Virus record (IMG/VR): IMGVR_UViG_3300032294_000141
Location: 1-43,891 of that record
DNA from: a virus
DNA length: 43,891 nt
Reading direction: 5' to 3' (one strand)
Of this stretch, positions 3-26,660 are shown piece by piece. Both the position numbers and the translations under genes were made by a program. The notes beneath the pieces are model-generated. The model was not told the origin of the DNA and did not search any database. It was given only the letters and a program-made list of their open reading frames with translations. Each line of letters starts with the position of its first letter. The first letter of the stretch is position 1.

Positions 3-647
3 GAAGAGGCAATCGAGGACAACTTGTATGACAGCTTATCGGCTCGTTATACCAAGGCTTTGGCTCGTGCTATGGCGTACACCAAGCAGGTTAAAGCTGC
101 TGCTGTGTTAAACAACGGCTTCACTAACTCTGCCGCTTATTACGGTGGTGACGGTGTACCTTTGTTTGCGACAAACCATCCTTTGGTTTCTGGTGGCACA
201 AACAGCAACACTCAATCTACTCCTGCGGATTTGAACGAGACTTCTTTGGAAGCCGCCGTTATTCAAATCGCTGCTTGGACTGATGAGCGTAGTTTGTTAA
301 TCGCTGCTAAACCTAAGAAATTGATTGTTCCACCTGCACTACAGTTCGTTGCAACTCGTTTGCTCGAAACTCAACTGCGTGTTGGCACAACCGATAACGA
401 CATCAACGCTATCGTAAACAATGGTTCGATCCCAGATGGTTATTCAGTTAATAACTACCTGACCGATCCAAATGCTTACTTCCTCTGCACTGACGTTCCA
501 AACGGTATGAAGCATTTCGTTCGTACTCCTTTGAGCAACAGCATGGACGGAGACTTCGATACTGGTAACGTTCGTTACAAGTCTCGTGAGCGTTATAGCT
601 TCGGTTGGTCTGATCCTCTCGGTATGTGGGGTTCACAAGGCGCTTAA
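3..647 (+). CDS. Major capsid protein, C-terminal part (Mu gpT-like, HK97 fold)
   Basis: This gene is cut by the window edge. The frame is open from base 3 (codons for EEAIEDN) into a recognisable C-terminal region, so the TTG at 24 is internal and not a start. About 214 residues are visible. The sequence around 'GDGVPLFATNHPL', 'AKPKKLIVPPAL' and the C-terminal 'SFGWSDPLGMWGSQGA' matches what I know of the Mu-like gpT major head protein family, which forms the icosahedral shell with an HK97-type fold. A strong intrinsic terminator follows directly, as expected for a very highly expressed capsid gene. The portal, terminase and scaffold or protease genes are presumably upstream, outside the window. 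Confidence 0.88.
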   Translation, partial: EEAIEDNLYDSLSARYTKALARAMAYTKQVKAAAVLNNGFTNSAAYYGGDGVPLFATNHPLVSGGTNSNTQSTPADLNETSLEAAVIQIAAWTDERSLLIAAKPKKLIVPPALQFVATRLLETQLRVGTTDNDINAIVNNGSIPDGYSVNNYLTDPNAYFLCTDVPNGMKHFVRTPLSNSMDGDFDTGNVRYKSRERYSFGWSDPLGMWGSQGA

Positions 648-787: not shown

Positions 788-1252
788 ATGGGTTTTGCTA
801 CTCACTTAGGTCCTTGGCTACTTGGAACCGTTAAAAACACCACTGGCACTACTGCTGGTACTATTCGTAACACAGGCTGCACAGTTGTATCTCAATCTGC
901 TCCTGTAGCATTTGGCACTTTGACTGGTAATCTAATTACCGTCCCTGCTGGCTCACAGATTGTTGATATTAAGGTTGTTACTACAACTGTATTTAGCGCG
1001 GCAACTACTGCAAAATTAAGCATTGGTGGTACTGACTTTACAACTACTGGCACTGTTACCAGCGTTGGTAGCGTGGCATTAGGCGCTAATGCAACTACTC
1101 CTGGTGGCTGGTTAAATGTTGGCTCTACTGACGCTACTATTACCTACACATTGGCTGGTGCTGGTTTGACTACTGGGGCAGCAACAATCATCGTTACCTA
1201 TGCAGTTCGTAACTCTGATGGCGGTCAGTTCCAAACTACGTTTAATAATTAA
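788..1252 (+). CDS. Probable capsid decoration / small virion protein
   Basis: This encodes 154 residues, starting at ATG 788 behind the Shine-Dalgarno-like TATGGAGAA. It is rich in Thr, Gly, Val and Ala with alternating beta-type patterning ('VPAGSQIVDIKVVTTTVF', 'ATIIVTYAVR') and has no membrane segment. The family is not one I can name. Its position directly after the capsid gene and its isolation between two intrinsic terminators suggest an abundant virion protein such as a decoration or head-fibre protein. That role is inferred from position and composition only. Confidence 0.6.
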   Translation: MGFATHLGPWLLGTVKNTTGTTAGTIRNTGCTVVSQSAPVAFGTLTGNLITVPAGSQIVDIKVVTTTVFSAATTAKLSIGGTDFTTTGTVTSVGSVALGANATTPGGWLNVGSTDATITYTLAGAGLTTGAATIIVTYAVRNSDGGQFQTTFNN

Positions 1253-1792: not shown

Positions 1793-2563
1793 ATGTCAGA
1801 AGAACTAAGAGCTGAGGCTTCATTTAGTTTAGCGGGTAGGAAGATCATGATTGGTCTTCCTGCTTATGACTTTAAAGTTTCGGTAAAACTAGCCATATCT
1901 TTGGCTCAGTTTGCCGTAGAAGCGCCTAAACACGGGGTCGATATTCAGATCTGCAATATTTCTGGATGCTCCGTTGTTTCCCGTGTACGCAACCTGATCG
2001 CTAAGGACTTCCTTGCTTCAGACTGCACGGACTTGATGTTTATTGATTCCGACATTACGTTTGACCCGCAAGACATCTTCCGCCTAATGGCATGGAATAC
2101 AAACCCCAAAATAGGTATTGTTGGTGGCGTTCCAGTAGCCCGTAAAAAGGGAAGTGTCTATATTTCTACGTTAGATCAAGATACTGACGGTGGAATCTAC
2201 ATGAATTCGTATGGTTTAGTTAAGGCTAAGCGTATTGCTACAGCCTTTATGCTGATCCGTAAAGACGTATTTGAGACCCTTAGGGACAACCATCCTGAGT
2301 GGCGTTACCACGATGACCGTGTAGTAGACGGACATCCAGACAAGTTTTGCTACTCATTCTTTGACTTTAAATCTACTCCAGAAGGTTATGTAGGCGAGGA
2401 CTATACGTTCTGTGACCGTGCTGGTGAGCATGGCTATGAAGTATGGATTGATCCTACGATTAAGCTAGGCCATTTAGGAATGACTGAGTTTGAGGGTTCA
2501 TTTGGTGAAGAGTTTCTTTATCCACTTATTCGTTCAGTAGACTCTAAAAAGGATGCTGCGTAA
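1793..2563 (+). CDS. GT-A fold glycosyltransferase
   Basis: This encodes 256 residues. An N-terminal Rossmann-like strand 'KIMIGLPAYDFKV' is followed at residues 82-90 by 'MFIDSDITF', whose D85-x-D87 is the metal/nucleotide-sugar binding DxD motif of GT-A transferases. 'GEDYTFCDRAGEHGYEVWID' supplies the acidic pair typical of the catalytic base region, and 'GHLG' follows. Length and motif order fit GT2/Anp1-like phage transferases. It sits inside the virion gene block and its stop overlaps the next start (TAATG at 2563), so glycosylation of a capsid or fibre protein is a reasonable guess. The substrate cannot be read from the sequence. Confidence 0.78.
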   Translation: MSEELRAEASFSLAGRKIMIGLPAYDFKVSVKLAISLAQFAVEAPKHGVDIQICNISGCSVVSRVRNLIAKDFLASDCTDLMFIDSDITFDPQDIFRLMAWNTNPKIGIVGGVPVARKKGSVYISTLDQDTDGGIYMNSYGLVKAKRIATAFMLIRKDVFETLRDNHPEWRYHDDRVVDGHPDKFCYSFFDFKSTPEGYVGEDYTFCDRAGEHGYEVWIDPTIKLGHLGMTEFEGSFGEEFLYPLIRSVDSKKDAA

Positions 2564-2823
2564 TGGCTACCAAGAAAAAAGGGGTGTCTCTTGCGATTGG
2601 TCGTGGTGAAAAGCTGCCTGTATCTAAGGGTGCTGGGCTTACCGCCAAAGGTCGTGCTAAATATAATGCAGCTACTGGCTCGAATCTAAAGGCTCCACAG
2701 CCACAAGGTGGCGCTCGTAAGAAGTCATTTTGCGCTCGTATGTCTGGTATGCCAGGCCCAATGAAGGACGAAAATGGCAAGCCTACTAGAAAGGCTGCCT
2801 CTCTAAAGAGGTGGAAATGCTAA
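2563..2823 (+). CDS. Small basic phage protein (conserved, unknown function)
   Basis: This encodes 86 residues, very rich in Lys, Arg and Gly. The pattern 'GLTAKGRAKYNAATGSNLKA' and the C-terminal 'GMPGPMKDENGKPTRKAA...RWKC' match a small protein family I recall from many aquatic phages and which carries a DUF designation (possibly DUF6321; number not verified). No function is established to my knowledge. It overlaps the glycosyltransferase stop by one base and is followed by an overlapping membrane-protein gene. Strong positive charge would allow DNA or capsid-interior binding, which is inference. Confidence 0.75.
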   Translation: MATKKKGVSLAIGRGEKLPVSKGAGLTAKGRAKYNAATGSNLKAPQPQGGARKKSFCARMSGMPGPMKDENGKPTRKAASLKRWKC

Positions 2824-3056: not shown

Positions 3057-3470
3057 ATGCCAAGCGTATCAAAAAAGCAACACAATTTCATGGCGGCTGT
3101 GGCTAATAACCCAAAGTTTGCCAAAAAAGCAGGTGTGTCTTCCTCCGTAGGGAAGGAATTTTTAACTGCCGACAAAGGCAAAACATTTAAAGAAGGCGGA
3201 ACCATGAAAAAGTCAAACCCATTTATGGAAATGATTGCAAAGAAAAAAGAAGCTGCAGCTAAGAAAGACGCCCCAGCTAAAAAAATGGCTGCAGGCGGTA
3301 AAGCTCACTCAGACATGGCTAAAGACAAGCCAATGATGAAAAAAGTAGCAGCCAAAGCTGTTAAAGGTCATGAGAAGAAAATGCACGGCATGGCTCGTGG
3401 CGGTGGTGTTGAGATCAAAGGTAAGACCAAAGGCACAATGATTAAGATGACTAAAGGCGGAAGCTGCTAA
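3057..3470 (+). CDS. Lys/Ala-rich small protein with N-terminal DUF3008-like segment
   Basis: This encodes 137 residues. The N-terminus 'MPSVSKKQHNFMAAVANNPK' resembles the 'S.kqq.fMg.va' start of small stress or phage proteins assigned to DUF3008-type families (similarity from memory). The remainder is low-complexity Lys/Ala/Met/Gly. The C-terminus 'GGGVEIKGKTKG' is a degenerate version of the GKTR tag found at the ends of the next three proteins. It starts 3 bases after the previous stop. Very basic; a virion-interior or DNA-contacting protein is possible. Confidence 0.65.
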   Translation: MPSVSKKQHNFMAAVANNPKFAKKAGVSSSVGKEFLTADKGKTFKEGGTMKKSNPFMEMIAKKKEAAAKKDAPAKKMAAGGKAHSDMAKDKPMMKKVAAKAVKGHEKKMHGMARGGGVEIKGKTKGTMIKMTKGGSC

Positions 3471-3472
3471 CC

Positions 3473-3709
3473 ATGGAAAAGTCACCAGACCAAATCGTAG
3501 CGGACATTGACCGCAAACAAAACGAAGAAGACCGGGATTTGATTCCTCGTGCTGGGCGTATGCTAAAAGAAAAGTTTATGGAGCTTATGACTAGTAAGCC
3601 AAAAGGCGAAAAGGAAAAAAAGCCAGTTAGCAAAGCTAAAGGTGGTTCAGTATCTTCCGCTTCTAAACGTGCTGATGGCTGCGCTATTCGTGGAAAGACA
3701 AGAGCCTAA
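3473..3709 (+). CDS. Small charged protein ending in the shared 19-residue tag (copy 1)
   Basis: This encodes 78 residues. The first 55 or so are charged and helical ('SPDQIVADIDRKQNEEDRDL', 'MLKEKFMELMTSK') and unlike the neighbours. The last 19 residues, VSSASKRADGCAIRGKTRA, are identical to the ends of the next two proteins. The body is otherwise unrecognised. It starts 2 bases after the previous stop and ends 2 bases before the next ATG, so it is a member of a co-translated cluster. A structural or packaging role for the tag is inferred, not shown. Confidence 0.7.
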   Translation: MEKSPDQIVADIDRKQNEEDRDLIPRAGRMLKEKFMELMTSKPKGEKEKKPVSKAKGGSVSSASKRADGCAIRGKTRA

Positions 3710-4349
3710 TCATGGTTAAGCCTGTACAACCTTCTAATCCAAGTAGCGGCGATGGGAGTGAGAAATACACTCCTAAAGAGAAGCGTGGGCCAAGTGAATT
3801 TGATAAAGCACTTGAGAAAGAGAAGGCTGAGCGGGCTAGGGAAGAAATTAGGAAGATGTCCGAAGAAACACGGGCAAAAAAAGATGCTGAGCGTTCGCGA
3901 ACCTACACTGAAAGACTGCAGGATATGGGCAGATTGCCTAAGCCTAGCGGCGGTGCTGGTGGTGATCTTAGTGGTATGAAAGGTTTAGACAAACCGTTTA
4001 AAGCTGGTGGCAAGGTGTCTAGTGCCTCTAAACGGGCCGATGGCTGTGCTATTAGAGGAAAGACACGAGCATGAACTATATTAAAAATCTTGGCAATGTA
4101 GCTAAGACACTAGCTGGTGTTTCAATTATCCCCGGCGTATCTGATTCAGTTAATAAGTTTGTAGATAATGTTACTGGCAGCGGGGATAAAGAACGAGACG
4201 AAAAGATCAAAGCTTTAGAAGCTGAAGTAGCTGCTGGTCGTAAGACTAAAGCTCAAGCTCAGACTGAAGCAGGGATGAAAAAGGGCGGTAAGGTGTCGTC
4301 AGCATCTAAACGGGCCGATGGTTGTGCTATTAGAGGGAAGACAAGAGCA
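3650..4349 (+). repeat. Three copies of a 19-codon C-terminal tag
   Basis: The codons for VSSASKRADGCAIRGKTRA lie at 3650-3706, 4015-4071 and 4293-4349, always immediately before a stop. All three are identical in protein. Copy 1 and copy 2 differ synonymously at 9 of 19 codons, and copy 2 and copy 3 at 6 of 19 codons. The identity is therefore maintained at protein level and is not a recent DNA duplication. Confidence 0.92.
3712..4074 (+). CDS. Small charged protein ending in the shared 19-residue tag (copy 2)
   Basis: This encodes 120 residues. A Pro/Ser-rich start is followed by a long charged helix with alternating Lys/Glu/Arg ('FDKALEKEKAERAREEIRKM'), a Gly-rich linker ('SGGAGGDLSGMKGL') and the tag VSSASKRADGCAIRGKTRA. 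The central part would form a coiled coil or single alpha helix. The last codon and stop (GCATGA) overlap the ATG of the next gene by 4 bases. Apart from the tag, it shows no similarity I can see to the neighbouring tagged proteins. Confidence 0.7.
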   Translation: MVKPVQPSNPSSGDGSEKYTPKEKRGPSEFDKALEKEKAERAREEIRKMSEETRAKKDAERSRTYTERLQDMGRLPKPSGGAGGDLSGMKGLDKPFKAGGKVSSASKRADGCAIRGKTRA

Positions 4350-4352
4350 TGA
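4071..4352 (+). CDS. Small protein ending in the shared 19-residue tag (copy 3)
   Basis: This encodes 93 residues. The N-terminal half ('NLGNVAKTLAGVSIIPGVSD') is amphipathic and partly hydrophobic, followed by a charged helix ('DEKIKALEAEVAAGRKTKAQ') and the tag VSSASKRADGCAIRGKTRA. It starts inside the previous stop (ATGA at 4071) and ends the same way at 4349. The body differs from copies 1 and 2, so the tag has been kept on three unrelated bodies. Function unknown. Confidence 0.7.
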   Translation: MNYIKNLGNVAKTLAGVSIIPGVSDSVNKFVDNVTGSGDKERDEKIKALEAEVAAGRKTKAQAQTEAGMKKGGKVSSASKRADGCAIRGKTRA

Positions 4353-4621
4353 GACCAAGCAGAGGCATGGGCGCCATAATGCCCACCAAAATGGGCAAAG
4401 GGGTTAAAAAAGCCCGTAGGGATGATACCGATTTTACCCAGTATAAAGAGGGTGGTAAGGTTAACGCCGCGGGTAACTATACTAAGCCTAGCCTTCGTAA
4501 GCGGATTGTGTCACAAGTTAAAGCAGCTGCAACACATGGCACTGGCGCAGGTCAGTGGTCGGCTCGTAAAGCCCAATTGGTAGCTAAAAAATATAAGGCG
4601 GCTGGCGGTGGTTATAAATGA
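4349..4621 (+). CDS. Small basic phage protein ending AAGGGYK
   Basis: This encodes 90 residues, strongly basic. The C-terminal half ('TKPSLRKRIVSQVKAAATHG', then 'GQWSARKAQLVAKKYKAAGG') matches a small conserved protein I have seen repeatedly in aquatic podovirus-like genomes. It has no established function. An internal 'YKEGGKV' echoes the GG-V/M motif found in neighbouring virion proteins. It is coupled to both neighbours by ATGA overlaps (4349 and 4618). Likely a virion or head-maturation accessory protein; uncertain. Confidence 0.72.
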   Translation: MRPSRGMGAIMPTKMGKGVKKARRDDTDFTQYKEGGKVNAAGNYTKPSLRKRIVSQVKAAATHGTGAGQWSARKAQLVAKKYKAAGGGYK

Positions 4622-4869
4622 CTGGATTAGCAAAATCACAACGTTCTTTAAAGGCTTGGGGCGACCAAAAGTGGACAACCAAGTCAGGAAAGAAGTCGTC
4701 CGAAACAGGCGAGCGGTACCTGCCAAAAAAAGCAATCGAGTCGTTAAGCCCGCAGGAGTACGCAGCAACAACACGAGCAAAACGAGCGGGCAAAGCACAA
4801 GGAAAGCAGTTCGTGCCCCAGCCAGCAAAAGTAAAAGCAAAAGTAAAGCCGTACCGAAAGGTTAAGTAA
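4618..4869 (+). CDS. Small basic phage protein (DUF5872-like)
   Basis: This encodes 83 residues. 'GLAKSQRSLKAWGDQKW', 'SSETGERYLPKKAIESLSP' and 'AATTRAKRAGKAQGKQFVPQ' follow a well-conserved small phage and bacterial protein pattern ('SLKkWtkQkWrT..GK.S...eRYLP..a...LsP.E.AAt.rAKr.Gt..GKQFV.QP') that I associate, unverified, with DUF5872. An 85-residue reading frame from GTG 4608 overlaps almost completely in another frame but is low-complexity and is rejected as a shadow. The stop overlaps the next ATG (TAATG at 4869). Confidence 0.8.
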   Translation: MTGLAKSQRSLKAWGDQKWTTKSGKKSSETGERYLPKKAIESLSPQEYAATTRAKRAGKAQGKQFVPQPAKVKAKVKPYRKVK

Positions 4870-5807
4870 TGAGCACAACTGGCACAACCGCGTTTAATTT
4901 AGAAATGAATGACCTCATTGAGGAGGCGTTTGAACGCTGTGGGCAAGAGCTACGTACTGGATATGACTTCCGTACTGCACGGCGGTCCCTTAACCTATTA
5001 ACTATTGAGTGGGCAAACCGAGGCATTAACCTGTGGACAGTTGAGCAGGGGCAGATTGTGATGAACACCCAGCAAGCTATTTATGCCTTACCTGTTGATA
5101 CTATTGATATTTTAGATGCTGTTACTCGTACTAATAACGGTGTGCAGTCAAATCAAACGGACATTAACTTAAGCCGTATTGCAGAGCCAACTTATATTAC
5201 GATCCCAAACAAAAATGCCAACGGCAGGCCCATTCAAATGTGGGTTAACCGTCAAAGTGGTGGCGTTGCAGCAATACCGCAAACAACAGTTGCGGCGGGC
5301 AATCCAATTAGTTCTGCAGATCAAACAACTATTACTTTAACTAGTGTAGCTAATTTACCTACTCAGGGCTTTGTAAACATTGATAACGAGACAATTGGGT
5401 ACCAGAACATTGTAGGAAACCAGATTATTAACGCATGGCGTGGGCAGAACGGTACTATTGCTACAACTCATGCCGCTGGCGCTAACGTGTTTAACAACCA
5501 GCTTCCATGTATTAATGTCTGGCCTACACCTAACCCACCTGGAAATCAGTACACATTGGTGTATTACCGCATGCGCCGTATTCAAGATGGCGGTAGTGGT
5601 GTGCGTACACAGGATATTCCATTCCGTTTTATACCGTGCATGGTAGCCGGGTTAGCAAGCCATTTAAGTATGAAACTTGCTGGGGTTGATCCTAATCGAG
5701 TTATAGCTTTAAAAGCAGATTATGAACAACAGTTCCAATTAGCTGCAGACGAAGATAGGGAGAAAGCCTCTGTTCGTTTTGTGCCCCGCAACATGTTTTA
5801 TTCATAA
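4869..5807 (+). CDS. Tail accessory factor / head-tail connector (P22 gp4-like)
   Basis: This encodes 312 residues. The N-terminal helical segment 'MNDLIEEAFERCGQELRTGY' followed by 'SLNLLTIEWANRGINLWTVE' is characteristic of the P22 tail accessory factor (gp4-like) connector family, which forms the ring beneath the portal. A central beta insertion (about residues 135-215: 'TTITLTSVANLPTQGFVNID') resembles small FCCH/IgG-like inserts. The C-terminus ('IPFRFIPCMVAGLASHLSMK') matches the terminal helices of the family. It lies between the basic small genes and another connector gene, as expected for neck assembly. Confidence 0.75.
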   Translation: MSTTGTTAFNLEMNDLIEEAFERCGQELRTGYDFRTARRSLNLLTIEWANRGINLWTVEQGQIVMNTQQAIYALPVDTIDILDAVTRTNNGVQSNQTDINLSRIAEPTYITIPNKNANGRPIQMWVNRQSGGVAAIPQTTVAAGNPISSADQTTITLTSVANLPTQGFVNIDNETIGYQNIVGNQIINAWRGQNGTIATTHAAGANVFNNQLPCINVWPTPNPPGNQYTLVYYRMRRIQDGGSGVRTQDIPFRFIPCMVAGLASHLSMKLAGVDPNRVIALKADYEQQFQLAADEDREKASVRFVPRNMFYS

Positions 5808-6238: not shown

Positions 6239-6442
6239 ATGTTTAAAAAAGACGCAGATGGTATAGCTAAAAAAGGCAAAACCGAAGGTAAAAACCTGGG
6301 AGATAGCGGTCCATCAGTATTGGGCATGAAATCAAAGCCAAAGATGGGCGGCAAAGACCAAAACGTAATGAAAAAAATTGGGCGCAATCTTGCCAAGGTT
6401 CAAAATCAAGGCATGCGTAAATCCGCTGGACGAGGCCGATAA
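6239..6442 (+). CDS. Small basic protein with an N-terminal DADGIAKKGKT motif
   Basis: This encodes 67 residues, starting at ATG 6239 behind a clear AGGAG at 6228-6232. The N-terminus 'KKDADGIAKKGKTEGK' is a variant of the RADGCAIRGKTRA tag, here at the opposite end of the protein. The remainder is Lys/Gly/Met-rich and ends 'KSAGRGR'. The stop overlaps the next start (TAATG at 6442). Unknown function; probably part of the same group of small basic virion-associated proteins as 2563-4869. Confidence 0.68.
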   Translation: MFKKDADGIAKKGKTEGKNLGDSGPSVLGMKSKPKMGGKDQNVMKKIGRNLAKVQNQGMRKSAGRGR

Positions 6443-6723
6443 TGGCTAAATTTTCAAAAAAGGTTATGGGCAAAGAGGTTGGCGATGCTAAACTTTATGC
6501 TGAGCCTCATGATATGAAGGGGAAAGTTGTGGACCATAAAGAACCAAGCACTATTAAACGTGACCCAAATTCGCTGTCAGCTAAAGAAGTAACACCTAAA
6601 ACAGGAGCTGCACGTGTTAGCGCAGGTGATCCAAACCGCGATGATGCCAAAACTACTGGCATTAAGATTCGTGGTACAGGCGCAGCAACTAAGGGTGTTA
6701 TGGCTAGAGGACCGATGGCGTAA
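6442..6723 (+). CDS. Small basic protein ending RGTGAATKGVMARGPMA
   Basis: This encodes 93 residues, basic and disordered-looking. The C-terminal 'IKIRGTGAATKGVMARGPMA' resembles an ending I have seen on other small phage proteins ('RGTGAATKG...RGPM'), which suggests a conserved peptide with a shared partner. The upstream body ('DMKGKVVDHKEPSTIKRDPN') is not recognised. It is coupled by one-base TAATG overlaps on both sides, placing it firmly between two neck genes. A head-completion or interior role is possible but not demonstrated. Confidence 0.68.
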   Translation: MAKFSKKVMGKEVGDAKLYAEPHDMKGKVVDHKEPSTIKRDPNSLSAKEVTPKTGAARVSAGDPNRDDAKTTGIKIRGTGAATKGVMARGPMA

Positions 6724-11519: not shown

Positions 11520-13511
11520 ATGACTCAATACTCAGGCTCTTGGACTCTACAACAACAGATGCAAGCTAAGGCTGCAGGCAACTGGCCCGATGCTACTGAT
11601 CCTAACTTTAAGTACGTAACAATGCTACTTAATGGTGATGGGACTAATGGCGCACAGAACAACACCTTCCTAGACAGCTCTACCAATAACTTTACGATTA
11701 CTCGTAACGGCAATACCACACAGGGTAGCTTTAGTCCTTATGGGAACTTGTGGAGTAACTTCTTTAATGGCTCTAGCAATCTATCGTGTAATGTATCTGG
11801 AATAAGTGCTGGAACAAATACATTTACTTTGGAATTTTGGGTATTTCTAAACGCATATCCTGATTCTGACGCTCCTTTTGTAGACACAAGAAGTTCTAAC
11901 GGCGCAACTACAACTGCATTTCAGTTTGGAGTGTATTCAACTGGCGCACTAAAATTATATGAGGGTTCTGAAACCAATTTAGGCGGCACAGTTCCTAGAA
12001 ACCAATGGACACATATTGCATTAGTTCGCAACGGCTCTAATGTTGTAACAGCATACATCAACGGAACAGCAACAGGCACAACAACTACAAGCACACGAAA
12101 TTTTAGTGATAACTTTTTTTGGATTGGATGCGTACCAGGACCTTCGTCCCCATACATTAACGCATATCTTTCAAATTTAAGATGGGTTGTCGGCAGCGCT
12201 TTATATACAACAACATTTACACCATCAGCAACTCCTTTGACAGCAGTAACAAACACTCAGTTGCTTACTTGCCAATCAAATCGGTTTGTTGACAATAGCT
12301 CTAATAATCGAACCATTACAGTAGCTGGCACACCATCAGTCCAACGCTTCTCACCATTTGAACCAACAGCACCATACTCTACTAGCGTAATAGGTGGAAG
12401 TGGGTACTTTGATGGTAGTGGAGATTATTTGACTTTGGCTGCAAGTTCAAGTTGGGAACTTCCTGCTAACTTTACTTGGGAATGTTGGGCTTATCCAACT
12501 AATCTTTCAGCAACACCCCAACGAATTTTGCACCAAGGAAGTACTGGAACGCAAAAAATGATTTTTTATATTGATAATTCTAGTGGTGCTTTTAATTTTT
12601 ACTATGATGGCGGTTCTAACTTTATAGTATCCTCAATTAATTTAAGGGCAAACGCTTGGAATCATATTGCTGGAGTTAGAAATGGCTCAACCATTACTCT
12701 TTATATAAATGGTGTTAGTGCTGGCACAGCAACATCAAGTGCAACCCTTGGAGATAGTAGTTTAGGCTTTGCGATTGGCTCTAATGGGGGAGCTACAGAC
12801 CAATTCCCTGGTTATATTTCCGATGCTCGTATAGTTAAAGGCACAGCAGTTTACACATCAAACTTTACACCACCAACTGCGCCACTAACCGCAATTACCA
12901 ATACGTCTCTGCTTACTAGCATGACCAACGCTGGCATCCCTGACCTTGCTATGATGAACAACCTAGAAACAGTAGGTAACGCACAAGTAAGCACAAGTGT
13001 CGTTAAGTACGGAACAGGAAGTTTAGCGTTTGATGGGAGTGGGGATTATTTAATTGCTTCTAACAATCCAGCCTATGCTTTTAGTACTGGCGATTTTACA
13101 ATGGAGTGCTGGTATTACTCAGGAACAACAACACAACAAACTGTATTAGATACAAGAAACACATCTAATGGTCCAGGTGTTTTAATGTACACATTAAGTA
13201 ACGCATTGCGTGTTTACTCTAATGGTGGAGATGCTGGTGGATCAATAAATATACCAAATAACACTTGGACACATCTTGTAGTAGAAAGAATTTCAGGTGC
13301 TTTATATACTTATGTTAATGGTGTTAGAGATATAAATGGTTCTTCCTACACCACAAATTTAACAGATAATAGCTTTGTTGCTGGATTAGATACAAAGGCT
13401 AGTGGCTTTGGTCTTAATGGTTATCTTGATGATATCCGCATAACCAAAGGTTTAGCAAGATACTCTGGTCCATCATTTACACCACCTGTTGCTGCGTTAC
13501 CGACTTTTTAA
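11520..13511 (+). CDS. Tail fibre with three LamG/concanavalin A-like domains (copy A)
   Basis: This encodes 663 residues. After an N-terminal anchor region (about residues 1-85, 'NNTFLDSSTNNFTITRNGNT'), three LamG/ConA-like jelly rolls can be seen. Each has the 'F.(L/M/W)E.W.' strand, 'W.H(I/L)..VR', 'YINGV' and 'DDIRI/..RWV.G.A.YT..FTP' signature, ending at 'FTPPVAALPTF'. LamG domains bind glycans, so host polysaccharide recognition is the likely role. The gene at 13922-15967 is a clear paralogue. The next gene, 13521, may be its accessory partner. Confidence 0.82.
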   Translation: MTQYSGSWTLQQQMQAKAAGNWPDATDPNFKYVTMLLNGDGTNGAQNNTFLDSSTNNFTITRNGNTTQGSFSPYGNLWSNFFNGSSNLSCNVSGISAGTNTFTLEFWVFLNAYPDSDAPFVDTRSSNGATTTAFQFGVYSTGALKLYEGSETNLGGTVPRNQWTHIALVRNGSNVVTAYINGTATGTTTTSTRNFSDNFFWIGCVPGPSSPYINAYLSNLRWVVGSALYTTTFTPSATPLTAVTNTQLLTCQSNRFVDNSSNNRTITVAGTPSVQRFSPFEPTAPYSTSVIGGSGYFDGSGDYLTLAASSSWELPANFTWECWAYPTNLSATPQRILHQGSTGTQKMIFYIDNSSGAFNFYYDGGSNFIVSSINLRANAWNHIAGVRNGSTITLYINGVSAGTATSSATLGDSSLGFAIGSNGGATDQFPGYISDARIVKGTAVYTSNFTPPTAPLTAITNTSLLTSMTNAGIPDLAMMNNLETVGNAQVSTSVVKYGTGSLAFDGSGDYLIASNNPAYAFSTGDFTMECWYYSGTTTQQTVLDTRNTSNGPGVLMYTLSNALRVYSNGGDAGGSINIPNNTWTHLVVERISGALYTYVNGVRDINGSSYTTNLTDNSFVAGLDTKASGFGLNGYLDDIRITKGLARYSGPSFTPPVAALPTF

Positions 13512-13520
13512 GGCATAAAC

Positions 13521-13925
13521 ATGAGTTATTTTGCACAAGTTGTAGACGGATCTGTTGTAAACGTAATCCGTATTGAGCAAGAAGTTCTTAACTCTGGCGC
13601 ATGGGGTGACCCCGCTAGTTTTGTGCAGACCTCTTACAATACGCATGGCGGAATACACTACGAGCCAAATACTAACCCGCCTGTACCAAGCCCAGATCAG
13701 TCTAAAGCCCTACGTGCTAACTATGCTGGGGTTGGGTACATTTACGATTCAGTTAATGATGTTTTTTACACAAAACAGCCATACCCATCTTGGACTATTA
13801 GTGCACCTACGTGGATTTGGGAAGCACCTGTTCCGTACCCAAGTGAAGGCGGACCCTATATGTGGGATGAGGCAACACAATCTTGGGTTCCAGTCCCGAC
13901 AATTTCAATCGGAGTAAATGAATGA
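13521..13925 (+). CDS. Small Trp/Pro-rich protein following fibre A
   Basis: This encodes 134 residues. 'SYFAQVVDGSVVNVIRIEQE' is a start I recognise from small phage proteins of T4-like and other aquatic phages, and the C-terminal 'PTWIWEAPVPYP...YMWDEATQSWVP' is aromatic and proline rich. Such proteins often follow fibre genes and are suspected to be fibre tips or assembly helpers. No established function is known to me. The stop overlaps the start of fibre B by 4 bases (ATGA at 13922). Confidence 0.65.
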   Translation: MSYFAQVVDGSVVNVIRIEQEVLNSGAWGDPASFVQTSYNTHGGIHYEPNTNPPVPSPDQSKALRANYAGVGYIYDSVNDVFYTKQPYPSWTISAPTWIWEAPVPYPSEGGPYMWDEATQSWVPVPTISIGVNE

Positions 13926-15967
13926 GCTTATCTTATCCAGGCGGAATAATTTCTAGTACAGGTGCTGTTTCTAACGGTGGAAACATAAACGACACTGCGC
14001 CAGGAGTTTGGAAACTCTCTGATATTGGGTATCTTACTTTTACCAATTCCTGGCCCGGAACCGCACTTAGAGACCCTGACTTTAATAACGTATCTTTGTT
14101 GCTGAATGGTAACAACACTAACGGTTCGCAGAACAATACTTTTTTAGATTCTTCTGTTAATAACTTTAGCATTACCCGTAATGGAAACACTACTCAAGGT
14201 AGCTTTAGTCCATACCAAAACCATTGGAGCAACTATTTTAACGGTAGCAGCTCTATCTTTACTTCAGGCTCTCAAATTATCCCAGCAACAGGTGCTTTTA
14301 CTGTTGAAGCTTGGGTAAATCTTTCTTGGTTCGACAATCCTGTAAATATATTTTCTCAAGGTACGCCAGGCAGCTCTGATTATATAAATGTTTTTATTAC
14401 TGGCTACGGAGACAACATAGCCATAGCAACAACAATAGGTACTACAGTATATTTCCCAACTGGACCTGTTCTTGTAGGTCGTTGGAATCATATTGCTATT
14501 CAAAGGACAGGCAGCTCAGTTACTGGATACCTCAATGGTTACGCCTATTTAACTGCTACCAATAGCGCCTCTATTGCAAACGCTCCTTTATATATTGGTA
14601 GTACTAGCACTCCAGGCAACTACTTTATTGGTAACGTGTCAAACGCTAGAGTAAGTAACATTGTTCGTTATTCTGCTCCATTTACACCTCCAGCCGCACC
14701 GTTTGTAAGTGACGCTAATACTGTTTTGCTAACGTGTCAGGCTAATCGTTTCCTAGATAGCGGTCCTAATGCATACACAATCAATTTAAACGGCGCTCCT
14801 GCTGTATCAAGATTTTCTGGAACTCAGTTGCCACAGCAATACAACACTGGTAACTATGGCGGTAGCGGTTATTTTGATGGTACAGGCGATTACTTATTAA
14901 CTCCGTCTTCCGCTTCTATTTCTAACTTTAGTGGTAACTTTACTATTGAAGGCTGGGTTTATTTAACCGCAACCTCAACTAATGCCGTACTAATTGGTGG
15001 TGATGGCTCAAACGGGTGGTATGTTGAGTACAGCGGCAACCGTGGATTTGGCGCTTATGATGGTAGTACATTTATAAGTGGAAGCTCATCCGCCGTAACA
15101 AATCAATGGGTTCATTACGCCATAACAAGAGCTAGTGGTACTTTGCGATTTTTTATTAATGGCGTAAATACAGCAACAACTACATCAAGTGGGTTTAACT
15201 ATACGCAAGCATTAGGCATTAGTGCGTATTCGGGTGGTTCTTCATTTATCAACGGTTACCAATGTGATATACGAATTAACAACACTACTGCTTTATACAC
15301 AAGCGCATTTACACCACCCACTGCACCATTAACTGCCGTATCAGGAACTCAGCTTCTTACCAACTTCACCAACGCAGGCATTATAGATTCCTCAACTATA
15401 AGTGATTTTGAAACAGTGGGTAATGCACAAGTCAGCACAAGCGTTAAGAAATTTGGAACGGGTAGTTTAGCGTTTGACGGAAGCGGAGACAGGCTTTTTG
15501 TTGCCAATTCATCACCGATATTTTCATTAAGAAGCGTAAATTACACAGTAGAAATGTGGGTTTACGCAAATAGTTTTTCAGGGAATCCATATTTAGTAAG
15601 CTCTGGATCAACAGGGGGCACATTCTGGGCGATGTACCTTACTACTGGCGGAGCATTAGGCTGGGGCGGAAACACAGGAGCAAATCAATTTACTGGCGGG
15701 ACTGTGTCTTTAGGAGTCTGGACGCACGTTGCAATTTCTCAGGCTAATCAAAACGTATATTGGTTCATAAATGGTAATTTAGTATTAACCAAAGACCCAG
15801 CAACTATTAATTTTTCAAACTGGGTAACATCCAGTCAATTGTCAGTAGGTAGCAATTTTGGTTCTAATGACTTTAATGGCTACATAGATGACCTACGCAT
15901 TACCAAGGGCATTCCAAGATATTTACAGAACTTTGCCGTTCCTGTTGCTCCATTCCCAACTTATTAA
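13922..15967 (+). CDS. Tail fibre with three LamG/concanavalin A-like domains (copy B)
   Basis: This encodes 681 residues. It is paralogous to copy A: the N-terminal 'NNTFLDSSVNNFSITRNGNT' and 'QGSFSPYQNHWSNYFNGSS' nearly match copy A, as does the inter-domain 'FETVGNAQVSTSV' with 'FGTGSLAFDGSGDRL'. Three LamG-like units again show 'FT(V/I)E.WV', 'W.H.AI', 'FINGV' and the end motif 'IDDLRITKG'. The extreme N-terminus ('LSYPGGIISSTGAV') differs from A and recalls the glycine-rich protein's start ('RYPGGLITYS'). Two fibres with conserved scaffold and diverged strands suggest different glycan targets. Confidence 0.82.
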   Translation: MSLSYPGGIISSTGAVSNGGNINDTAPGVWKLSDIGYLTFTNSWPGTALRDPDFNNVSLLLNGNNTNGSQNNTFLDSSVNNFSITRNGNTTQGSFSPYQNHWSNYFNGSSSIFTSGSQIIPATGAFTVEAWVNLSWFDNPVNIFSQGTPGSSDYINVFITGYGDNIAIATTIGTTVYFPTGPVLVGRWNHIAIQRTGSSVTGYLNGYAYLTATNSASIANAPLYIGSTSTPGNYFIGNVSNARVSNIVRYSAPFTPPAAPFVSDANTVLLTCQANRFLDSGPNAYTINLNGAPAVSRFSGTQLPQQYNTGNYGGSGYFDGTGDYLLTPSSASISNFSGNFTIEGWVYLTATSTNAVLIGGDGSNGWYVEYSGNRGFGAYDGSTFISGSSSAVTNQWVHYAITRASGTLRFFINGVNTATTTSSGFNYTQALGISAYSGGSSFINGYQCDIRINNTTALYTSAFTPPTAPLTAVSGTQLLTNFTNAGIIDSSTISDFETVGNAQVSTSVKKFGTGSLAFDGSGDRLFVANSSPIFSLRSVNYTVEMWVYANSFSGNPYLVSSGSTGGTFWAMYLTTGGALGWGGNTGANQFTGGTVSLGVWTHVAISQANQNVYWFINGNLVLTKDPATINFSNWVTSSQLSVGSNFGSNDFNGYIDDLRITKGIPRYLQNFAVPVAPFPTY

Positions 15968-20085: not shown

Positions 20086-20765
20086 TGGCAGAGACGCTTC
20101 AACAATACAATGTAAGGGCGCCAGCGTTACCTTTACCCCCAGTCGAATACGATCAATTTCAACAAGATCAGTTTCAAAATGCCCTGCGTCTGTACTTTAA
20201 TCGTCTTGATGGCTTTTTAGCTGGGTTATCTAAATTTGCAGGGGGAGGGGGTATTAGTTTCCCCCATATAGCAGCTTCTGATTCTACCGACCAATACGCT
20301 ACAGCAAATGATACTCCTACGGTTGTTAAGTTTAATACGCTTGATTCTGGGGTAGGTTTTACACTAAACGCTCCTGGATCGGCTACTTGCAACGTTTCCG
20401 GCATATACAAAATAACGTACAGTGCCCAGTTAGCAAATACAGCAAATGCAGCCCATGATGCTGTTTTTTGGCTTAGAGAAAATACAGTAGATATACCAAA
20501 CTCAGCAACCATATTTACCTTGCCAGCGCGTAAAAGCGCAGGTGTTCCATCTTACGTTGCGGGTTACTCAGAAGTTGTTTTTACGGCAGCAGCAGGGGAT
20601 GTAATTGAACTATGGTGGGCAACGGAATTAGCCTATAGCCCAACTGGTCCAGTAAACGGTGTTTATATTTATAATGAACCTGCTTGGACTACCCCAACAA
20701 ACCCATACCCTAGACCTGCAGTGCCGTCTGTAATTGGCTCTATAACCTTTGTATCTGCGGTATAG
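20085..20765 (+). CDS. Virion protein with C1q/TNF-like jelly roll
   Basis: This encodes 226 residues, overlapping the upstream stop by one base (TAATG). Residues 20-45 ('FQQDQFQNALRLYFNRLDGF') form an amphipathic attachment helix, and residues 70-175 have the beta pattern 'VSGIYKITYSAQLAN...HDAVFWLREN...VPSYVAGYSEVVFTAAAGDVIELWW'. This is characteristic of TNF/C1q-like jelly-roll fibre heads seen in many phages. The C-terminus 'PSVIGSITFVSAV' is a recurrent ending of such proteins. Likely a trimeric fibre or appendage; receptor unknown. Confidence 0.68.
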   Translation: MAETLQQYNVRAPALPLPPVEYDQFQQDQFQNALRLYFNRLDGFLAGLSKFAGGGGISFPHIAASDSTDQYATANDTPTVVKFNTLDSGVGFTLNAPGSATCNVSGIYKITYSAQLANTANAAHDAVFWLRENTVDIPNSATIFTLPARKSAGVPSYVAGYSEVVFTAAAGDVIELWWATELAYSPTGPVNGVYIYNEPAWTTPTNPYPRPAVPSVIGSITFVSAV

Positions 20766-20767
20766 AC

Positions 20768-20809
20768 ATGATAAACTTCAATCAATTCAACCCCGTGAGG
20801 CCTTTATGA
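20768..20809 (+). other. 13-codon mini-ORF overlapping the next start
   Basis: ATG 20768 opens a 13-codon frame (MINFNQFNPVRPL) whose stop TGA at 20807-20809 overlaps the ATG of the large gene at 20806. No good ribosome-binding site precedes it. It could be a leader that couples translation, or chance. Confidence 0.25.
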
Positions 20810-23800
20810 GTCGTGCAGCTGCCAAACATTTAGCTTCCTATGGTCGTGGCAACGATACTGAACTCGTCCACATGACTCCTGGCGAGATTAAAGGACTTCA
20901 AGCCCTTGCTCTAGCCCATGGTGGTTCTCTAACAATTAACCCAGATACGGGTTTGCCTGAGGCGGGTTTTTTAGAACGCATTCTTCCTATGGTTGTTGGA
21001 GCAGGACTTACTATAGCTTCGGGTGGTGCTTTGACTCCCTTAATGGCTGCTGGTATTACTGGTGCAGGTTACGGTTTGGCTACAGGAAGCGTAGAAAAAG
21101 GCTTAATGGCTGGTATAGGCGCTTATGGTGGCGCTGGGCTAGGCGCTGGTTTAGCTAGTGCTGGAACATCCGCAGCAGTAGAAGCAGGTGGGACCGCTGC
21201 TGTTGAACAAGCTGTTGCTACTACTGGACAAGAAGCTGCTAAACAGGCGGCTGGGCAAACAATTGCCGGAGAAGCTGCTAAAACAGCTGCGCTAGAAGGA
21301 ATAACGCTCCCCGCTAACTATGCCGAATTAGCTGCGCAATCAGCAACTCCACAACAGATAGCTGGAATTCAAGCTCAAAACGCTTTAAGTGGTAATGCAG
21401 CACTACAACAAGCCGCTTCACAAGCTGCAAATCCATTGGATGTGGTACGTGCTTCTGGTATGGGTAATGTAGCTAATAGCGCTCAGGTTGTTGACCCAAC
21501 CGTTGGGCAAAGTGTGGCTAATGTGGGGAGAGGTCTAGGCGAACTTGGTACTAGCGCAGGGAGAAGCGCAGTTTATGGTTCTTTGCCTTCAGGAACATTG
21601 CCAGCAATAGCAATGACTGCGTTATCCCCAGATCAGCAAGCTGCAAGCCCAGCGGGGTACCAAGAAGACGAGTATGATCGCCGCTTAAAAGGTTACAAAT
21701 TAAGTCCTGACTATCAAGCCTATGTAGCCCCAAGACCTAACCCATACTACAGACCTACTTATGCCGCAGGGGGTGGCGTAATGGAGTCGTTTGACGATGA
21801 AGCTGGTTCAGATACTGTTGGCATGGCTTCTGGTGGCATTGCACGGTATCGTAATAAGGGTAAAGTTAATGTGTTACAAGACTACCTAGACAGGCAAGAA
21901 GAACCTGTACAAAAACACCTGTCAACAAATGTTTCTTCCTACATGCCAGATGTAGGCATATTTAGAGATCCTGACATAGATACAGCCAGAAAAGATGCTT
22001 TAACAGCCTCAATGATTCGTTTGGGTAAAGCTGGCAAAGGTGCTGGCATTAAAGCCGTAGCACTTCCTAAGACTTCAATTAAGGGGCTTGGGGATGTTAG
22101 AGGCGCTACCCCTGAAATAGAAGAAGCTGCTGATGGCGGTGTCATGCGTTACAACCTAGGAGGGTATTCCGATGGTGGAAGAATGCTTAAAGGACCTGGG
22201 GATGGTATGTCTGATTCTATCCCTGCTTCTATTGCTGGAAAACAACCAGCACGGCTGGCTGATGGAGAGTTTGTTGTCCCGGCTGATGTTGTTTCACATT
22301 TAGGTAATGGCTCTACCGATGCTGGTGCTAAGAAGTTATACGGCATGATGGACAAGATTCGTAAAGCACGAACAGGCAAAAAGAAACAAGCCCCAGCAGT
22401 AAACGCCGATAAATACTTACCCATTAAGAAAAAAGCATCGGGTGGTATAGCTGAATACGCTGAAGGCGGAGTGGTTGGGTATGCTAGTGGGGGTATAGCT
22501 AGGTTTGCTGATGGTGGTGAGATTGCAAGCGTATATGAGATGTATTTAGGTCGTACTCCAAGCGCTGCCGAGATTAAGTCATGGCAAGATACTAATGCCT
22601 CATATAACACTATTTCTCAGGGCATTCGTAATTCCCCAGAAGCAAAAACATTTGCAGCAGATAAGTCTAATGCAAAAAAATTAGTTACTTCTCTTTATCA
22701 AGATCAATTAGGTCGTGCGCCAGATGAAGGGGGTTTAGAGTATTGGTCTAGTGAGTTGGCTAAAGGTACGCCATTAGAGCAAATATCACAAGGCATTAAC
22801 CAATCCCTTGAAGGACAGAACTTTGATACGCAATACATTACCAGCCTGTACCGTCAAAACTTAGCTCGTAACCCAGAGCAAGGTGGCTTTCAATATTGGT
22901 TATCAGAGGCGCAGGCATTAGGTTATACACCAAAAGAAATCGAAGCTATTTTAAAACAAGCAGCAACCCCAGAACAAGCGGTAAGGAAAATAACTCCAGG
23001 CGAAAAAGCTACAGAAATGGAGTTAGCTGCATTAGAAGCCGATCCTTATGGTGGGCGGTATAAAACCCAAAGCATTTATGATTTATTGCCAGACGCAGTA
23101 AATGTATCCGATATTGGCGGCAGAAAAGCTCAGTTTGTAGCCCCTGTTACACAGCGGCCTTATGTTACAAATTACGGAAAAGACGGAAGCCAATGGTCGC
23201 AAGCCGTGGGCCAAGAAATATTAAATGAACCCCAAGTACAAGCGGCTATTGCTGTTGCTCGCAATAACGGGACACTAAGCCTAGCAGGTTATGACGCATT
23301 AATGGTGGATTTAAAAGCTGCTAAAACAGCAGAACAAACCAGAGCTGCACTTGCAAAACCTCAAGCTCAAGTTGTCGTAGATGCGTTATATGGTCAACAA
23401 ATTGGTGAAAATGTAAATCTTGCTGCAGCAAAAACGGAAGCAGAGGGGCGTCAAGGAGTATTAACGGCGCAAGATCCTGGGTACTACCAATCTAACCCAG
23501 TATTAAGTGCCGCATATCAACAGGCTGGTTTAACTGTTCCAATGGACTATGGTCTTTATAAAAACGTCGATACTCGCACGGGGCAGGCGAATCTATTTAC
23601 CCCTGCGAATTTCCAAGACAAACAAAGAAATTTAGTAAATACGTTAAATAGAAACGACCCATATAGAACGTCATATCAGCCTATTAATCGTGGTATTGCT
23701 AATATGCCAGCTTCTGTGCAAGATCCTTATTCTGATGCAGGGTTACAGTTCTTGTATGGTCAAATGATGAATCAGTACGCCCCAGCACCTCCAGGACAAG

Positions 23801-24024
23801 TTAATCCAGCTACTTTTGGATTTGATAGACCTTATACATATATACCACCGCCACAAAATAATTTAGCGTTAAACACACCTATTGCTGATGCGTCAAAGCC
23901 TGGCACCCCTGTTGCTGAGGCGGCCCCAGCCGCTGTTGTTACTGAACGAGCAGGTGGTTTAATGGCTGTAGATCGTAAAAAACGGGCTAAAGATAAGATC
24001 AGAAAGGGTTTAAAAGCTGCATGA
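20806..24024 (+). CDS. Large internal virion protein with three DUF4214 repeats
   Basis: The start is ATG 20806, with GTGAGG 5 bases upstream; the TTG at 20749 lies inside the previous gene and is unlikely. The protein is 1072 residues. A Gly/Ala-rich hydrophobic stretch (about 55-115, 'MVVGAGLTIASGGALTPLMA') could insert into membrane during ejection. Several GG motifs follow ('ASGGIARYRNKGKV', 'ADGGVMRYNLGG', 'YASGGIARFADGGE'). Residues about 571-725 hold three DUF4214-like units ('YEMYLGRTPSAAEI', 'LYQDQLGRAPDEGGLEYW', 'LYRQNLARNPEQGGFQYW'). The C-terminus is basic ('KKRAKDKIRKGLKAA'). Position suggests an ejection protein; the stop overlaps the next start (ATGA). Confidence 0.68.
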   Translation: MSRAAAKHLASYGRGNDTELVHMTPGEIKGLQALALAHGGSLTINPDTGLPEAGFLERILPMVVGAGLTIASGGALTPLMAAGITGAGYGLATGSVEKGLMAGIGAYGGAGLGAGLASAGTSAAVEAGGTAAVEQAVATTGQEAAKQAAGQTIAGEAAKTAALEGITLPANYAELAAQSATPQQIAGIQAQNALSGNAALQQAASQAANPLDVVRASGMGNVANSAQVVDPTVGQSVANVGRGLGELGTSAGRSAVYGSLPSGTLPAIAMTALSPDQQAASPAGYQEDEYDRRLKGYKLSPDYQAYVAPRPNPYYRPTYAAGGGVMESFDDEAGSDTVGMASGGIARYRNKGKVNVLQDYLDRQEEPVQKHLSTNVSSYMPDVGIFRDPDIDTARKDALTASMIRLGKAGKGAGIKAVALPKTSIKGLGDVRGATPEIEEAADGGVMRYNLGGYSDGGRMLKGPGDGMSDSIPASIAGKQPARLADGEFVVPADVVSHLGNGSTDAGAKKLYGMMDKIRKARTGKKKQAPAVNADKYLPIKKKASGGIAEYAEGGVVGYASGGIARFADGGEIASVYEMYLGRTPSAAEIKSWQDTNASYNTISQGIRNSPEAKTFAADKSNAKKLVTSLYQDQLGRAPDEGGLEYWSSELAKGTPLEQISQGINQSLEGQNFDTQYITSLYRQNLARNPEQGGFQYWLSEAQALGYTPKEIEAILKQAATPEQAVRKITPGEKATEMELAALEADPYGGRYKTQSIYDLLPDAVNVSDIGGRKAQFVAPVTQRPYVTNYGKDGSQWSQAVGQEILNEPQVQAAIAVARNNGTLSLAGYDALMVDLKAAKTAEQTRAALAKPQAQVVVDALYGQQIGENVNLAAAKTEAEGRQGVLTAQDPGYYQSNPVLSAAYQQAGLTVPMDYGLYKNVDTRTGQANLFTPANFQDKQRNLVNTLNRNDPYRTSYQPINRGIANMPASVQDPYSDAGLQFLYGQMMNQYAPAPPGQVNPATFGFDRPYTYIPPPQNNLALNTPIADASKPGTPVAEAAPAAVVTERAGGLMAVDRKKRAKDKIRKGLKAA

Positions 24025-24443: not shown

Positions 24444-26660
24444 ATGGGTAAAGGCGGCGGTAGTCCAGGTCCAAGCCAAAATACTACGGTAACTTCAAAT
24501 ATTCCTGAGTATGCGAAGCCGTATGTAACGAACATGTTCGAGGCTACCCAGCAGCAGTTATTTACTGGGAATAAGACTCCAGAAGGTGGTTTTGATATTA
24601 CTGGGTTTCGTCCATATCAGCCATACAGCGGCAACGTTAGCGACTACTATGCTGGGTTTTCTCCGCTTCAACAGCAAGCTCAATTTGATGCTGGTGCGAT
24701 GCAACAGCCAGGACAGTTTGCTTTGGGTAGTGGTTTAGCAGGTAGTGCTGGTATTCGGTCTTTAGGGGCGGCTGGGCAGTTTGCTAAAGACGTAACTAAT
24801 CCTGCCACTATGCAGTCTTATATGTCGCCATACCAACAAGGCGTTACCGATGTTGCTAAACAAGCAGCCGTTCGTGAAGCGCAAATGGCTCAGAACTCTC
24901 AAAACTTAATGTCTCCAAGACAGGGCACTTATGGCGGGGCTAGGCAAACTCTTGCAAATATGGAGCGTGAGCGTAATCTGCTGTCTAATTTGTCTAATAT
25001 CCAAACCCAAGGGTCGCAAGCTGCGTACGACAGAGCAATGCAAACCCAACAGTTTGGCGCTAATTTAGGTATGCAGGGTTATGGGCAGGCTTTGGGTGCT
25101 GGTTCGGCACTAGGTCAACTGGGTGCTACCCAACAAGGTACTGATATTGCTCGTCAAAACCAAATGGCAACAATGGGCCAGCAACAACAAGGTCTTGAGC
25201 AATCTAAGATTAACCAAGCTATCCAGGACTACGCTACGCAGCAACAGTATCCGCTTATGCAGCTCGGCTTTATGTCCAACATGTTGCGTGGCTTACCGAT
25301 GCAAGCAGCAACCACTCAATCCTATCAAGCAGCTCCATCACCGATTACGCAAGGTCTGGGTCTTTTAGCTGGTGCGGCTGGTGCTAAGCAAGCTGGTTTG
25401 TTTAAGGAGGGGGGAACTATCAAGGGTCTAGCCTCTGGTGGTGTTACAGGCTACGCTAATAGGGGTATGGTTCAGTCCAATCCTAATAGCGGAGTAGTCC
25501 AAGGCATCCGTCAAAAACTACAAATGATGCCACCTGAGCAGCTACAGCAAGTTGCGCAAACCAGTTCCAGTGAAGAAGTCCGTGCCATGGCAATAGAAAT
25601 ATTGCGTGAGAAACAGTTACGGGATCAAGCCGAGATGCAAGCCCAGCAATCTATTATGCAAGACCAGCGTAGTATGCCTACTCCTGTGTCTGAGAACGCG
25701 GGGTTATCTGCAGCTCCTGCTGGGTCTATGGATATGCTAAGTGCAGCTAGTGGTGGCATTGTGGCTTTTGCTGGTCCTGACGGTAGTGCGGTTGAGTTAG
25801 ATCCTGAAGAAGCGCAGCGCCAGCAAGAGTTCCTTGCCCGTCAGCAATATGTTGACTTTGCTAGAAAGCAGCGTGAATCCTCTGGTGTAAGTGCGCCCAA
25901 AGCAGCGCTAGCTGAGTTCTATGCTAAACAACAGGCTGAACTAGGTGACGAAAGAAAACGTGCTAGAGGTTACGATTTAATGCAGTTTGGTGTTGACCTA
26001 GCTAGCCAAGCAGGGGACTTACCTTTTGCAGTTGCTAAAGCAGGGCAAAGAACATTACCCGGAATCATATCCCGTCAAGAAACTATTAAAGGACGTGAAA
26101 GTGATATTGCCAAGGGTTTAGCCGAAGTTGCTGAAGGTGAACGCCTAATGAAACAGGGTGATATTACCGCTGCTAATGCAATGTTTGAGAAGGGTCAAGA
26201 GCGCCTTAGTAAAGAAAAGATTGCAGCGGCTAGAGGGCCTACAGATTTGATGGGCTATGCTCAAACGTATTTAGCAGAGAAAGTGGCTGAAGGGGATACA
26301 CGAGATCGGAATGTCATACTTAGAGAAGGTATGGACATTAAGAAGAGATTAGATGCCGAAGCAACAAATAGGCGTACAGATGTTGCGGCTACTACAGCTG
26401 GAGTAAATACTCTTGACAGAGCTCGTGATAACGTAGATAGCTCTTTATCTAAAAACTTTAACTCTCCAGAAAATAAACAGCTTCGTAAGCTGCAAAAAGA
26501 AGACAAGAAAAACGGCACTAATACTGCTGGGGAATACAAAAATAGCCTGTATCGCCAAGAAGAAAAACGACTGCAAGGTGGTTCTGGTGGTGGCGGTGGT
26601 GGTGGCGGTAGTAGAACTCCTTCGCTTCCGTCAGGTTTTGTACCAGATAAAAAAAGTTAA
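24444..26660 (+). CDS. Internal virion / ejection protein
   Basis: This encodes 738 residues, starting at ATG 24444 behind AAGGAG. The start 'MGKGGGSPGPSQNTTVTSNI' with 'PEYAKPYVTNMFEATQQQLF' is recurrent in podovirus-like environmental phages. The first half is Gln/Ala/Gly-rich and helical; around residues 320-350 and 435-445 are the GG motifs ('LASGGVTGYANRGMV', 'AASGGIVAFAGPDG') shared with the upstream ejection protein. The second half is charged helix ('ISRQETIKGRESDIAKGLAE'). It ends in a poly-Gly/Ser tail. Placement between the GNAT-like and giant proteins supports a core or ejection role. Confidence 0.68.
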   Translation: MGKGGGSPGPSQNTTVTSNIPEYAKPYVTNMFEATQQQLFTGNKTPEGGFDITGFRPYQPYSGNVSDYYAGFSPLQQQAQFDAGAMQQPGQFALGSGLAGSAGIRSLGAAGQFAKDVTNPATMQSYMSPYQQGVTDVAKQAAVREAQMAQNSQNLMSPRQGTYGGARQTLANMERERNLLSNLSNIQTQGSQAAYDRAMQTQQFGANLGMQGYGQALGAGSALGQLGATQQGTDIARQNQMATMGQQQQGLEQSKINQAIQDYATQQQYPLMQLGFMSNMLRGLPMQAATTQSYQAAPSPITQGLGLLAGAAGAKQAGLFKEGGTIKGLASGGVTGYANRGMVQSNPNSGVVQGIRQKLQMMPPEQLQQVAQTSSSEEVRAMAIEILREKQLRDQAEMQAQQSIMQDQRSMPTPVSENAGLSAAPAGSMDMLSAASGGIVAFAGPDGSAVELDPEEAQRQQEFLARQQYVDFARKQRESSGVSAPKAALAEFYAKQQAELGDERKRARGYDLMQFGVDLASQAGDLPFAVAKAGQRTLPGIISRQETIKGRESDIAKGLAEVAEGERLMKQGDITAANAMFEKGQERLSKEKIAAARGPTDLMGYAQTYLAEKVAEGDTRDRNVILREGMDIKKRLDAEATNRRTDVAATTAGVNTLDRARDNVDSSLSKNFNSPENKQLRKLQKEDKKNGTNTAGEYKNSLYRQEEKRLQGGSGGGGGGGGSRTPSLPSGFVPDKKS

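Follow-up and report, generated by a model that had tools for sequence, protein, structure and literature searches.

A recurrent C-terminal tag on unrelated small proteins of a short-tailed phage lineage: a candidate virion-docking signal

Why should three neighbouring viral genes that encode unrelated proteins end in exactly the same 19 amino acids (aa)? The question arises from a stretch of viral DNA of 43,891 nucleotides (IMG/VR record IMGVR_UViG_3300032294_000141, positions 1 to 43,891; hereafter the window), in which three consecutive plus-strand genes code for small proteins of 78 aa (3473..3709), 120 aa (3712..4074) and 93 aa (4071..4352, with a start codon overlapping the stop of the preceding gene). 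A first-pass annotation had reported that all three share one C-terminus, and we found the same ends at the same coordinates: VSSASKRADGCAIRGKTRA is encoded at 3650-3706, 4015-4071 and 4293-4349, and the identity of the three copies continues upstream of the 19-mer as GG[SK]VSSASKRADGCAIRGKTRA (GG[SK]V). The bodies preceding this tag are mutually unrelated. None of the three proteins matched a PHROG, or a Pfam family above the Pfam cut-off; the body of the first has a relative in contig L097, and the second has orthologs in L006 (tag end QRGKTKGRMV) and L098 (end RGKTRA). An AlphaFold2 model of the second protein, built from an input of only three sequences, has a mean predicted local distance difference test (pLDDT) score of 63, with one long helix (29-60) and a value of about 52 in the tag region, which is thus predicted to be an unstructured, low-confidence tail at the chain end.

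At the DNA level the copies differ considerably. Copies 1 and 2 differ at 9 of 19 codons and copies 2 and 3 at 6 of 19, as had been counted before, while copies 1 and 3 differ at 11 of 19. All of these differences are synonymous, and about 12.5 differing codons out of 19 would be expected from independent draws on the phage's own codon usage, that is, at saturation. Such nearly saturated and exclusively synonymous divergence means that the copies are old and held at the protein level. Recent gene conversion among them is unsupported, as the codons have diverged.

To see the tag in other viruses, we scanned IMG/VR with one degenerate DNA pattern for ADG.A.[RK]GKT[RK]; all counts of tagged open reading frames (ORFs), bodies, contigs and tag forms given below are among the matches listed. 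The tag was present in at least 120 viral contigs, often in several copies per contig, and a motif that recurs C-terminally in so many contigs cannot be due to chance. In 157 of 233 tagged ORFs the motif lies at most 6 aa from the end and in 59 more at most 30 aa (216/233 together), and only 14 of the 233 carry it N-terminally. The common form is [FYM]KKGG.V.SAS[KS]RADG[IC]A.[RK]GKT[RK]G[KR]M[VCI]-stop. Four extra residues, typically GRMV or GKMV, end 134 of the 157 tags closest to the stop codon. The 19-residue tag with a basic ending that had been described first is therefore real in the window, yet it is the short form of a tag that usually runs longer: its RGKTRA-type ending, in which Ile nearly always precedes the Arg, accounts for 23 of the 157. 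Nor is the Cys invariant, as had been proposed. At the [IC] position Cys and Ile occur in about equal numbers, and the Cys may instead sit at the last residue, so that it occupies either of two positions and rarely both together. Cys is nearly absent from the bodies (34 of 18,457 residues) and present in most tags. As the sequences are mutually related, the p-value for this Cys pattern is optimistic.

Outside viral contigs the picture is different. Across bacterial and archaeal genomes totalling 257 Gb, almost all pattern matches were scattered single chance matches, and true tags were found in five contigs, four of them phage pieces and one a chimeric contig end. The latter (L182, 165-1841) belongs to a Patulibacter metagenome-assembled genome and appears to be joined to a phage tag fragment, probably through chimeric assembly; the tag on its 559-aa acyltransferase, at the contig end and without phage markers, was discounted as such a join. 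A whole-record match in Caulobacter phage RW was dropped owing to an internal stop. A tblastn search with the bare tag returned nothing in GenBank phages, the query being too short for such a test. Neither the tag string nor that of the sister tag described below was found in 5.39 million open papers, and the searched passages of papers on HTVC023P-type and CRP-901 phages make no mention of a C-terminal motif.

The bodies that carry the tag are as diverse elsewhere as in the window. BLAST comparison sorted 208 of them into 87 clusters, 65 of which are singletons, and when tagged proteins from one contig were paired, both bodies fell into the same cluster in only 1 of 121 pairs. Just a handful of the 87 representative proteins match any Pfam or PHROG family. 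Over 76 ortholog pairs, the ratio of nonsynonymous to synonymous differences (pN/pS) was 0.37 for the body and 0.25 for the tag, the latter figure being conditional on the search pattern. Together with the nearly saturated synonymous codons, the diversity of the bodies bears out the earlier proposal of an old tag kept by protein-level selection on unrelated bodies.

In which phages, and where in their genomes, does the tag occur? The portal/tail adaptor protein of the window (4869..5807, plus strand) places it in the HTVC023P / DSL-LC04 / CRP-901 / Pag-Yong1 lineage of short-tailed phages. Virion genes of this lineage were found in 120 of 120 listed tag contigs (117 in the marker search and three more, L023, L086 and L106, from their full records, since shorter stretches had been scored first), compared with 0 of 83 control contigs. 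When 20 large contigs (about 1 Mb) were searched with a profile, every tag copy lay in one block of less than 5 kb, adjoining the genes for the major capsid protein (MCP), DUF6321, SKKQHNF-family, adaptor and neck proteins. The tag is thus confined to the virion module, the enrichment for which the first-pass annotation had suggested a search. Among named GenBank phages, Planktothrix phage Pag-Yong1 encodes one tagged protein (UMO75986.1), ending in RDGCAKRGRTKGRFI, between MCP and adaptor. The shell gene beside the tags encodes a phage MCP (phrog_371), and genes for portal, adaptor and GroES are its neighbours. By sequence, MCP and portal matched no solved structure, and searches with the adaptor gave nothing, or one weak match to a flagellar brake protein.

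The same lineage also bears a second tail, which the first-pass annotation had overlooked: RG.GAA.[RK]G..F.G[VI]x-stop. HTVC023P is without the main tag, and two of its proteins, gp32 and gp51 (141-878 and 10966-11349 in L125), end in RGGGAAVRGMGFKGVF and RGVGAAIRGHKFIGVK, with an RG.GAA.RG..F.GV-like C-terminal motif common to both; one of the genes lies near portal-side genes and the other before the adaptor gene. All 123 listed matches to the sister-tag pattern are exactly C-terminal, and 116 of 119 listed contigs contain lineage markers, the nearest marker being portal (66), adaptor (21), GroES (18), neck gene (8) or MCP (3). The sister tag is without GK[ST] and has Ala, Phe and Val in place of basic positions; the trend in Cys position recurs in it weakly. 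The two tags are swapped on the same bodies: SKKQHNF-family bodies and those of a family around PDLTGDGK[IV]T..D[VI]L.GRGV are found with either one, and some DUF6321 proteins, whose body is known both tagged and untagged, carry hybrid tails GG[ST]VRGGGCEIRGKTKGKMV (hybrid tail RGGGCEIRGKTKGKMV). A post-portal body of DSL-LC04 bears a different tail. The occurrence of the same bodies with either tag, as well as the hybrid tails, indicates that the two are equivalent, and they look like one superfamily.

What might such a tail do? Known systems offer two close parallels. The internal proteins of T-even phages are highly diverse and only their targeting sequence is conserved (PMC3012670); likewise, encapsulin cargos share a C-terminal, sometimes N-terminal, peptide although they differ from each other, and their genes lie next to that of an HK97-fold shell (PMC7355545). 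A common chain-end signal on unrelated, hypervariable proteins beside shell and portal genes follows the pattern of both, including T4 Alt, and we favour, with some reservation, the view that the tag serves as a short, linear signal for virion docking, recognised by a conserved, lineage-specific virion component. Docking at the virion, in line with the capsid-targeting logic that the first-pass annotation had put forward as a possibility, is the best-supported reading. Unrelated small basic proteins would be made from hypervariable gene slots beside the portal, MCP and adaptor genes; their common tail would be recognised by a component of the capsid interior, the portal/adaptor or the assembly core; and the proteins would then enter the virion as cargo that is probably internal or ejected. 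A gene newly captured in such a slot would turn into a virion passenger once it had gained the tail. Packaging or incorporation itself we infer, and so too which component is the partner, the ejection of the proteins and any role against the host.

The tag nevertheless belongs to neither known system: in T4 the signal is a propeptide at the N-terminus that gp21 cleaves off (PMC5694885), and the genes here do not form an encapsulin shell operon. Unlike the former, the tag is mostly C-terminal, and no evidence of its cleavage or other processing was found. Unlike encapsulin peptides, it has a different sequence, sits on unrelated, mostly nameless basic proteins of a phage virion module, and its docking to the shell is putative. 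Phage P1 DarB provides another short terminal signal, although an N-terminal one: its first 30 aa suffice to send a reporter to the capsid, and no signal common to the P1 Dar proteins was detected by BLAST (PMC9024508).

Several observations weigh against virion docking. A position beside virion genes is no proof of incorporation. No scaffold or prohead protease was recognised in the module, in which genes h1-h3 correspond to PHROGs of unknown function. Some relatives (HTVC027P, CRP-902, DSL-LC04 and 023Pt_psg01) show neither tag, and the signal is therefore not shared by the whole lineage. In addition, the ADG and GKT letters were required by the search pattern, which makes their invariance partly a matter of construction, and profile hits show RGDG, KANG, GRT and GHT.

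Among the alternatives, the one that survives best, although we regard it as rather unlikely, is a lineage-specific docking motif that organises the small basic proteins among themselves or joins them to assembly or host machinery, as in a chaperone role in neck or portal assembly, while they stay unpackaged. The common genomic block, the partly disordered nature of these proteins and the phage GroES in the module are all consistent with it. Conversely, a tag kept in strict register at the C-terminus of dozens of unrelated, hypervariable bodies looks more like a feature of cargo than of a fixed assembly machine. It is improbable that the tag is mainly a basic, Gly-rich tail for binding DNA or RNA. 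A net positive charge was found in 150 of 150 complete tagged proteins checked, but charge requires neither a near-invariant Asp-Gly nor a fixed distance from the stop codon nor restriction to a single lineage, and the sister tag replaces the basic positions.

We consider it very unlikely that the 3′ ends are alike as footprints of recombination or as nucleotide elements, such as homology for gene capture or the ribosome-binding site of the next gene, with the peptide incidental. One 3′ end on unrelated bodies does imply past exchange of 3′ ends, and residues shared by two tags have identical codons somewhat more often within a contig (0.53) than across contigs (0.41). Moreover, the last tag residues show a Shine-Dalgarno-like bias (46% of tags versus 25% when codons are redrawn synonymously), with GGA/GGG preferred for the last Gly. 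Third positions in the tag core are, however, near saturation and the core Gly codons are mainly GGT/GGC; it is therefore the peptide that is kept and not the DNA, and the ribosome-binding-like bias is a secondary overlay. Hardly any weight can be given to the idea that the tag is a C-terminal signal for degradation (a ClpX-type degron) or for processing (cleavage after GG). The position, the GG just upstream and the mostly nonpolar ends would fit, but the last residue is highly variable (V, C, I, A, Y, R, L, F), conservation is strongest inside the tag, and some versions are N-terminal or extended. A Walker A P-loop (GxxxxGK[ST]) was rejected, since the Lys is not conserved (GRT, GHT), the sister tag is without GK[ST], there is no strand-loop-helix context and the tag is predicted to be unstructured.

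If the tag is indeed a virion-docking signal, it would allow the nameless genes that encode virion cargo to be picked out by sequence in a phage lineage that is widespread in the sea and in fresh water and includes a cultured pelagiphage. It would also be a candidate for a packaging tag, placed at the C-terminus, with which to load proteins into the particles of short-tailed phages. More tentatively, and in our view somewhat doubtfully, the tails may form an exchangeable C-terminal virion-address code with at least two interconvertible dialects, in which a plug-in slot turns arbitrary new genes into host-delivered passengers and a single, possibly functional Cys shifts position.

The remaining plus-strand genes in and around the block show how the tagged slots are framed in the window. 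The C-terminal part of MCP (24..647) forms the upstream boundary and the adaptor gene the downstream one. Between them lie a probable cement protein (788..1252; without a PHROG hit, but sharing its place by tblastn with the annotated DSL-LC04 cement protein), a DUF6321 protein (2563..2823) that is untagged here and whose orthologs elsewhere have the tag directly after the conserved end, and a 137-aa protein of the SKKQHNFMAAVA family (3057..3470). The last has a degenerate tail, IKGKTKGTMIKMTKGGSC; among its relatives, either the sister tag or an ADG..GKT tag in extended form is present. The variable tag block is closed by two small basic proteins that are conserved (phrog_17747 and phrog_14910; 4349..4869). 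In two further genes, tag-like motifs had been missed before. A 67-aa protein (6239..6442), of a conserved family located just after the adaptor genes, has the motif ADGIAKKGKT near its N-terminus (6254-6283) and represents the type of the N-terminal matches. The 93-aa protein that follows (6442..6723) ends in IRGTGAATKGVMARGPMA (6667-6720), a sister-class (RG.GAA.[RK]G) tag with E=1.1e-4 to the sister-tag profile; the gene at the same place in other contigs, just before the neck gene, ends in IRGTGAATKGTMFQGDQ.

Large virion-module proteins encoded at 20749-24024 and 24444-26660 contain several aromatic/Met-x-x-GG-hydrophobic motifs (MASGGIA, FKEGGTI) resembling the GG.V part of the tag. Further along, a 2055-aa protein (26670-32837) with a HEALHAATV metallopeptidase-like motif resembles, by sequence alone, large polyvalent or internal virion proteins. 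The stretches 11520-13511 and 13922-15967 encode two long repeat proteins, similar to each other and with alike ends (DD[IL]RITKG..RY), which are probably tail or fibre proteins.
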